Origin: Geobacter sp. AOG1
GTDB lineage: Bacteria; Desulfobacterota; Desulfuromonadia; Geobacterales; Geobacteraceae
NCBI RefSeq assembly: GCF_019972315.1
Contig: NZ_BLIZ01000001.1
Span: forward strand, 942,513 to 1,006,512
Reading direction: 5' to 3'
Length of the DNA: 64,000 nucleotides
The first letter of the stretch is position 1. Every line of letters begins with the position of its first letter. Below are positions 42,977-46,101 of this stretch, piece by piece. The notes under the pieces are model-generated. The model searched no databases, was not told the origin of the DNA, and saw only the letters and a program-made list of their open reading frames with translations. The translations under genes and the position numbers were made by a program.

Positions 42977-44338
42977 TCAGAAGACGATCTGGTGCAGGTC
43001 CCGGCGGCGGTACCGCCAGGCGAAGGCGCCGGCGCGGAAGAACCAGTCCAGGAGGAACACCCCCCAGACGGCGGCAAGGGGGAGGTGGAGGAGTTCGGCG
43101 GCGACGTAGGAAAGGAACACGCGGATTCCCCACATGGAGATCAGGGTGACGAGAAAGACGTAGTGGGTGTCACCGGTCCCCCGCAGGCTACCGGCATAGA
43201 CGAAGGATATGGCAAGGGGGACTTGGGCGAAGGCGACCAGTCTAAGGAAGATGCACCCCTTGTCGATGACCTCCGGATCGTGGGTAAAGAAGCCGATGAG
43301 CTGGTGAGGGAGGAAGAGGAAAATTAGCGCCATTGCCGACATGACGAGGACGGCCAGTCTAAGCGCCTCCTGGTGGCTCAGTCGGGCACGTCGGATCTTG
43401 CGGGCGCCAAGGGCCTGCCCCATGAGGGTGGCGGCCGCGATTCCCATCCCCGCCCCCGGCATGAACGACAGGGACTCGATGGAGAGGCCGATCTGGTGGG
43501 CGGCGTAGGCGGCGGTGCCGTAGCCGATGATGAACTTGGAGTAGAAGAGCTGACCGGACTGCTGGGCCACTCGTTCCAAGGCGACCGGGTAGCCGACCTG
43601 CCAGATGCGGCGGAACTGTTCCCGATCGAGGGGGCCAATCTTGATGTACCCCCTGCGGAGTGCCTGCACCAGCAGGTAGAGGCAGCCGAAAAACTCCGAA
43701 GCATTGATGGCGTAAGCCGCACCGGTGACTCCGAGCGCGGGGAGCCCGAATTTGCCGTAGATGAGAGGGTAGGCGAGGACCACGTGGAGGATGTTGACCA
43801 GGATTACACCTTCCATAGGGGTGCGGGTGTTGCCGATGCCGTGCATGATGGCCGACAGGACGTTGAGGCCGGTTGTGAAGACGAGGTAGAGAAAGACCAG
43901 CCGAATATATCCCGTGGCGAGGTGGAGGACGTCGTCCCGGGCGCCGAGAAAGTGGGCCAGACGGTCTCCCAGTGAGTAGCCGAGGAGCGATGCGACAACG
44001 GTCATGGCCAGACAGGCAAGGCAGGCGGAAAAGGCCGCCCTTCGGGCTTCCGGATGATGACCCCCCCCCCAGAGATGGGCAATCACGACGGTGGTTCCGG
44101 TTGCCAGTCCCCAGAAGACGGTCATGACCACGAAGACGAGTAGCTGGCCGAGGCCGGTTGCGGCAATGGCCGCGGCACCCAGTCCTCCGACCAGAAATAT
44201 GTCGACGATGGAGACGAGCCGCTGGAAGAGCGACGACAGGAGAACCGGCAGGGACAGATTGAATACCCTGCGACGGATGGAAACCCGCCTGCCGGAGCCG
44301 TTGCCGGCCAAGTTGGAGATGAGACTGAGTCTGGGCAT
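42977..44338 (-). CDS. MATE-family efflux transporter
   Basis: This 453-residue inner-membrane protein has about 12 hydrophobic helices in two homologous halves. Typical MATE features include VFNLSLPVLLSSLFQRLVSIVDIFLVGGLG near the N-terminus and the second-half RIWQVGYPVALERVAQQ. Family members export cationic drugs, toxins or metabolites by Na+ or H+ antiport. Its substrate is unknown. The start at 44338 has CAGGAAC upstream. It lies 61 bp downstream of the AhpD-like selenoprotein gene on the same strand, with a small hairpin between, so the two may share a transcript. Confidence 0.94.
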   Translation of the reverse strand: MPRLSLISNLAGNGSGRRVSIRRRVFNLSLPVLLSSLFQRLVSIVDIFLVGGLGAAAIAATGLGQLLVFVVMTVFWGLATGTTVVIAHLWGGGHHPEARRAAFSACLACLAMTVVASLLGYSLGDRLAHFLGARDDVLHLATGYIRLVFLYLVFTTGLNVLSAIMHGIGNTRTPMEGVILVNILHVVLAYPLIYGKFGLPALGVTGAAYAINASEFFGCLYLLVQALRRGYIKIGPLDREQFRRIWQVGYPVALERVAQQSGQLFYSKFIIGYGTAAYAAHQIGLSIESLSFMPGAGMGIAAATLMGQALGARKIRRARLSHQEALRLAVLVMSAMALIFLFLPHQLIGFFTHDPEVIDKGCIFLRLVAFAQVPLAISFVYAGSLRGTGDTHYVFLVTLISMWGIRVFLSYVAAELLHLPLAAVWGVFLLDWFFRAGAFAWRYRRRDLHQIVF

Positions 44339-44399: not shown

Positions 44400-44651
44400 T
44401 TACAGTTCGAGGTCGTCCGAGAGGCTCAGCACGAAGTTCTTTGCCCGCCCTGACGGGGCGATCATGCCGTAGGCAAGGGCTTCCTTCAGTTCAGCTTCTG
44501 TCGCACCCGCTTCCTTCGCGCCCGCGAAGTGTTTTTTCAGTCAGGTGGGGCACCCGACGGCGACGGCACAGCCGACACGGATCAGTTCGCGGGTCCTGGC
44601 GTCGAGCACTTCCTCATACTCGAAATCGAGGATCTTTTTCCGGATGCGCAT
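44400..44651 (-). CDS. AhpD-like carboxymuconolactone decarboxylase-fold selenoprotein
   Basis: This gene is interrupted by an in-frame TGA at 44541-44543 that I read as selenocysteine at position 37. The full product is 83 residues. It begins MRIRKKILDFEYEEVLDART with AGGAGG upstream and reaches the family active-site motif as GCPT-U-LKKHF, that is Cys34-x-x-Sec37 followed by His. It continues past the TGA with GAKEAGATEAELKEALAYG, exactly where AhpD/CMD proteins continue after CxxC-x3-H. The frame then runs clean to TAA at 44400. A hairpin 11 nt after the UGA fits a bacterial SECIS element. AhpD-like proteins are thiol-disulfide oxidoreductases in peroxide defence. A truncated 36-residue reading would lack most of the domain. 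Confidence 0.85.
44514..44529 (-). promoter_or_regulatory. SECIS-like hairpin downstream of UGA
   Basis: In the mRNA, CUUCGC, loop GGGC, GCGAAG forms a perfect 6-bp stem starting 11 nt after the UGA at 44543-44541. Bacterial SECIS elements lie in this place with guanines in a small apical loop, bound by SelB. Pairing is seen; function is inferred. Confidence 0.65.
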
Positions 44652-44685
44652 GGTCCACCTCCTCACAATAATGGATACTGCTAGT

Positions 44686-44859: not shown

Positions 44860-46101
44860 ATGAAAGCCGAACGAATAGAAGCTATGGAGTGGTTCAAGTC
44901 TCTCATTAAGCGCTTTGGCGTCTACCGGGGGGATCCGACCACCCAGGAGTTGGAGATGCTGGGGGAGACCCAGGTGCGGATGCAGCTGGTGGTGAAAACA
45001 CGGTGGATGCTCCTCATCCTGCTGACATGTTACGGTTTATATGCCGGCGGGTTCATGTATTTCAGCAGCAACGTTACCGACCTGCAGCTTTCCCAGATGC
45101 TGGTACTGGGGGGAGCGATGGTGGCGGTGGTGGCGTACAACCTGTTTTACCATCGCTATTTCCGGGAATTGAGCCACTTTGTCTTCATCAACCACCTCCA
45201 GATACTCCTCGACATCCTGTTCGTCACCATCCTGATCCATTACAGCGGCGGCGCACTCAGCTGGTTCTGGACCGTCTACCTGGTCCTCACCCTGGAGGCT
45301 TCGTTCCTCCTGGAACGGCGCGGGGATGTCTGGTTCATCGGCGGCGTCGGCGGCCTCATCTACGGCGCACTCCTGACAGCCGAATTTTACAGCGTCATTC
45401 ACCCCATCCGGATGCCGCTTATCGACCCTGCCCTGCAGCACAATTTCGTCTACGTGATGCTTCTCTGGTTCTGGGTTTCCCTCATGAACGGTACCGTGGC
45501 GATCATATCCGCCTATCTCATGGCGATCATCCGGAAGCGGGAGTATGACCTCAAGCTGATGGTGATAAAGGACCAGATGACCAGACTCTACAACCGGGCC
45601 TACTTCTTCAAGACCCTCAACAGCGAGATTCAGCGTTCGCTCCGTTACGACCACGTCTTTTCCGTCATTCTCCTCGACCTGGACAACTTCAAGATGTTCA
45701 ACGACACTTACGGCCACCTGGAAGGGGACCGACTCCTGAAAGGAGTGGCGCAGGTGTTCCGGGACAACATCCGGAGGAGTGAAACCGAACCCCCTTACGA
45801 TGTGGATGTTCCATGCCGGTACGGCGGCGAGGAGTTTGCCATCATCCTGCCGGAGACCCCTCTGCAGGGGGGGGAACATGGTGAGCGCTCTTCCAGCATC
45901 AATGCCCTGGGTTTTGCTGAACGGATCAGGAAGGACGTGGAGCGGCTGGACATCGACGGCCGCAAGGCCACGGTCAGCATCGGCGTGGCGTCCTTCCCCC
46001 AGCACGGCACTACTCCGGACGCCCTCGTCAAGGCGGCGGACGATGCTCTTTACCGGGCCAAGCATGGCGGGAAGAACCGGGTGGAGTTGGCGGTGGAGTA
46101 A
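44860..46101 (+). CDS. Membrane diguanylate cyclase (GGDEF)
   Basis: This 413-residue protein has about six N-terminal membrane helices (residues about 40-225). The GGDEF domain has DQMTRLYNRAYF, LDLDNFKMFNDTYGH and the active-site YGGEEFAIILP, then TVSIGVASFP. All catalytic features for making cyclic di-GMP from two GTP appear intact. The RxxD inhibitory site normally just before GGEEF is absent (YDVDVPCRYGGEEF), so product inhibition is probably weak. The ATG at 44860 has GGAG 7 bp upstream. It could feed the PilZ protein nearby. It is followed by a bidirectional terminator shared with ssb. Confidence 0.92.
   Translation: MKAERIEAMEWFKSLIKRFGVYRGDPTTQELEMLGETQVRMQLVVKTRWMLLILLTCYGLYAGGFMYFSSNVTDLQLSQMLVLGGAMVAVVAYNLFYHRYFRELSHFVFINHLQILLDILFVTILIHYSGGALSWFWTVYLVLTLEASFLLERRGDVWFIGGVGGLIYGALLTAEFYSVIHPIRMPLIDPALQHNFVYVMLLWFWVSLMNGTVAIISAYLMAIIRKREYDLKLMVIKDQMTRLYNRAYFFKTLNSEIQRSLRYDHVFSVILLDLDNFKMFNDTYGHLEGDRLLKGVAQVFRDNIRRSETEPPYDVDVPCRYGGEEFAIILPETPLQGGEHGERSSSINALGFAERIRKDVERLDIDGRKATVSIGVASFPQHGTTPDALVKAADDALYRAKHGGKNRVELAVE

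Follow-up and report, generated by a model that had tools for sequence, protein, structure and literature searches.

A "distant AhpD homolog" was listed by Zhang et al. in 2006 among the selenoproteins of Geobacter sulfurreducens and G. uraniireducens, the latter spelled G. uraniumreducens in that paper (PMC1794560). This protein was entered as a CxxU protein, AAR36519.2, in a 2022 review (PMC9312934), and a 2026 review tied it, again as CxxU, to the NCBIfam model NF041047 (PMC13188914). NF041047, "GSU3128 family (seleno)protein", is an equivalog model with a curated cut-off of 110 bits. Other selenoproteins have the AhpD/CMD fold and the CxxU motif in common with it, such as AhpD-like 1 (COG2128), AhpD-like 2 and the CMD-like proteins from marine metagenomes, but these are treated as separate families in the reviews (TIGR01926, PF02627 and NF041238). 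The arsenite methyltransferase/AhpD domain selenoprotein (NF041537) and MduS (NF045649) carry a C-terminal AhpD domain that aligns with the protein described here. However, both are methyltransferase fusions, and our protein scores far below their cut-offs. The AhpD of Mycobacterium tuberculosis, an alkylhydroperoxidase and adaptor to AhpC, has a catalytic relay formed by Glu118, Cys130, Cys133 and His137, with His132 as a fifth residue (PMC3141380).

The stretch of DNA analysed here, 64,000 nucleotides from Geobacter sp. AOG1 (the window), contains a gene (Table 1) whose product matched NF041047 with 159.5 bits (E=1.6e-47), over the cut-off, residues 1-82 being aligned to positions 1-83 of the 84 in the profile. 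The Pfam CMD domain PF02627 (54.6 bits, E=1.1e-14, cut-off 23) and the AhpD core domain TIGR00778 (41.2 bits, cut-off 27.8) were also detected. The whole-length match over an equivalog cut-off, the CxxU motif and the Geobacter lineage are those of the distant AhpD homolog; nothing of substance differs, the window gene being the orthologue from another species. It is a genuine selenoprotein gene of a family already catalogued in Geobacter relatives. Since this family has been described, the gene is not novel and represents one more orthologue, and its product adds no new kind of system. The original prediction, made from the letters alone, had called the gene unannotated-looking, and this fails at the family level because NCBIfam holds an equivalog model. 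What is confirmed is that a recoded gene had been correctly recognised from its letters alone, and strong comparative proof of its SECIS is added.

Table 1. Positions in the window of the selenoprotein gene, its signals and the adjacent transporter gene
Feature	Positions	Strand	Basis or remark
Selenoprotein gene of the GSU3128 family (AhpD-like), encoding 83 residues and ending in TAA	44400..44651	minus	
Shine-Dalgarno AGGAGG	44658..44663	minus	6-nt spacer to ATG; read directly
TGA at codon 37, for the selenocysteine at the second position of CxxU	44541..44543	minus	ortholog conservation
SECIS-type hairpin CUUCGC-GGGC-GCGAAG, 6-bp stem and 4-nt loop	44514..44529	minus	synonymous freezing and pair conservation
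MATE-family transporter gene	42977..44338	minus	Pfam MatE, E=1.1e-64

Direct reading of the minus strand gave the frame that had been proposed. The gene starts with an ATG at 44651-44649, with 36 codons before the TGA, and continues for 46 sense codons up to a TAA at 44402-44400. The coordinates of the original prediction were correct, and the strand, which it had left unstated, is the minus strand. The AGGAGG that it placed before the ATG is present as well. For comparison, a scan of GTDB genomes yielded 57 orthologous loci (L004-L060) that align along practically the full length of the protein. They come from Geobacter, Geomonas, Geotalea, Citrifermentans, Desulfuromonadales and their relatives. 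G-rich Shine-Dalgarno-like stretches precede the start in most of them too. The active-site motif of the window protein is C34-P-T-U37. As had been suggested, the TGA occupies the site of the second active-site Cys, which is catalytic in the Cys homologues. The His that had been counted three residues past Sec is actually the fourth (U37 to H41), three residues lying between them.

The assignment to the AhpD/CMD group holds by Pfam, by NCBIfam and by fold. An AlphaFold2 model obtained from 22 orthologues had a pLDDT of 91.8, and its top Foldseek matches in the PDB were all CMD/AhpD-like, with TM-scores up to 0.76 and weak E-values (best 4.6e-3) for this very small protein. Glu22, Cys34, Sec37 and His41 are invariant in the 22 aligned sequences, and their 12-3-4 spacing is that of the catalytic relay of M. 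tuberculosis AhpD, with which the CMD fold is also shared. However, the window protein consists of a single domain in which Sec replaces the second Cys, and no counterpart of His132 was found between Cys34 and Sec37, position 36 being T, D, A, S or V. The likeness is confined to the AhpD core domain covered by TIGR00778. The sole other CMD match in the genome is an ordinary protein with two CMD domains (G000:C1:672004-672624, in a 276-codon frame), without internal TGA.

In bacteria, selenocysteine is inserted by the standard mechanism in which SelB binds a hairpin located 3' of the UGA. Here, SelB with Sec-tRNA(UCA) would bind the hairpin just 3' of UGA 37, and selenocysteine would be inserted at this codon by parts that are all present. 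The product would be a minimal AhpD/CMD-fold protein. Its Cys34-x-x-Sec37 pair most likely cycles between the selenol/thiol and selenenylsulfide states, and a peroxide or disulfide may be reduced via the selenenylsulfide. We have very high confidence, on sequence grounds, in a GSU3128-family selenoprotein with SECIS-driven Sec insertion at UGA 37, a CMD-fold redox protein which, because Glu22 and His41 stand at the AhpD proton-relay spacing, is probably a peroxidase or a thiol-disulfide oxidoreductase. Thiol/selenol oxidoreductase is the most likely role of the window protein.

The MATE gene lies 61 nt downstream of the selenoprotein gene and has the same direction. Rather than a free-standing peroxidase, the selenoprotein could be part of a detoxification unit with this exporter, acting for example on compounds, oxidised or electrophilic, which would then be removed by the exporter. 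A MATE homologue is found at the same place and in the same direction in 30 of the 58 loci (57 orthologues plus the window), which speaks for such a unit, but the selenoprotein gene is kept without it in the remaining 28, the neighbours vary outside the MATE-bearing set, and synteny among related genomes may be inheritance only. We consider the detoxification unit improbable. Since 28 loci have no MATE gene, the link is not obligatory. The MATE gene is a possible operon partner of the selenoprotein gene, and its adjacency gives a modest lead on selenoprotein function. A stronger proposal, that the two genes form a conserved redox-detoxification unit in the Geobacteraceae which has been undescribed as such, seems slightly more doubtful still. 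A search for GSU3128 as a locus tag in the literature found nothing, and no functional study of the family was found in the literature searched, so that the MATE linkage is the sole fresh handle. A diguanylate cyclase (GGDEF) gene is located upstream in divergent orientation (44863-46098, plus strand), and no relatives other than the three closest (L004-L006) have a close homologue in that place.

The case for a selenoprotein, with Sec at codon 37, comes mainly from its relatives. TGA is found at codon 37 in all 57 orthologues and in the window, and none of the 58 sequences has another in-frame stop up to codon 74. The search with the NF041047 model, whose species partly overlap the ortholog set, gave matches over the cut-off in 16 of the 395 genomes from the phylum and in 33 of the 48 from the family (47 distinct genomes). 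Among the matches listed, every one over the cut-off contains exactly one internal TGA. The pooled pairwise pN/pS was 0.201 in codons 2-36, before the TGA, versus 0.158 in codons 38-74, after it, and the stretch past the TGA is thus under protein-level selection. Two of the tests named with the original prediction, TGA at this codon in homologues and conservation beyond it, came out in its favour. A plasmid search for homologues of the selenoprotein found none.

The perfect hairpin that had been noted 11 nt past the UGA is there, read from 44529 to 44514, and spans exactly codons 41-46. No other run of six codons in the gene has so low a synonymous entropy (ratio 0.16, versus 0.88 elsewhere), Phe42 being TTC and Ala45 being GCG in 58 of 58 sequences. 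All six stem pairs are kept in the 63 distinct Sec sequences (378 of 378 cells). A compensatory change from C-G to U-A was detected in L045 and L046, and an independent one from U-A to C-G in L111, while the six-pair stem occurs in none of 29 distinct Cys-type homologues. The hairpin is directly 3' of the UGA and has G in its apical loop, as in a SECIS. The commonest loop in the Sec sequences is GGUC, followed by GGGC, GGCC, AGGU and CGUG. The SECIS of E. coli fdhF likewise has GGUC as its apical loop; its 41-nt stretch was found in 5368 of 5426 E. coli genomes, and the matches listed are annotated as fdhF.

Signals internal to the window are less specific. An open extension of 46 codons follows the stop in 181 of its 614 TGA-ended frames (59% GC), and extension length, being common in GC-rich DNA, was dropped as evidence for recoding. 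A comparable stem-loop is rarer than this, following 19 of 1887 TGA triplets. Folding energy does not set the hairpin region apart (z = -1.2) and by itself is not significant as SECIS evidence. Rfam gave no match in the whole window at gathering thresholds. Because the extension is common and the folding energy unremarkable, the proof rests on comparison with relatives.

This comparison also decides against the TGA as a true stop, a pseudogene mutation or a sequencing error, with the downstream homology a remnant or the triplet a misread Cys codon. A single-base error would be compatible with the window alone, but the same TGA in 57 separately assembled loci, free of other stops and followed by sequence under purifying selection, refutes this explanation, and the hairpin is conserved only in TGA forms; we give it almost no chance. 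The selenoprotein reading is strongly supported.

The Sec machinery, which the original prediction had proposed to look for, was found in the same 3.68-Mb genome: a tRNA-Sec with anticodon UCA (selC), selA (SelA, 613.8 bits), selB and selD, the last with one in-frame TGA itself. Readthrough of the UGA by a near-cognate tRNA inserting, for example, Trp found no support and is extremely improbable, given this complete machinery, the SECIS-type hairpin and a codon 37 that corresponds to the catalytic Cys of the Cys homologues, never to Trp. The window begins about 12 kb after the selB gene (G000:C1:928379-930268), and selA, selC and selD lie elsewhere in the genome.

Diverged TGA-containing relatives were also observed in other families of the same phylum (L120, L121 and L124). 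They may form a separate, unmodelled selenoprotein subfamily near the AhpD domain that is found in ArsM/AhpD selenoproteins and in MduS. All three carry the identical SECIS stem, CUUCGC/GCGAAG, and L120 and L121 score 76-78 bits to NF041047, under its 110-bit cut-off.
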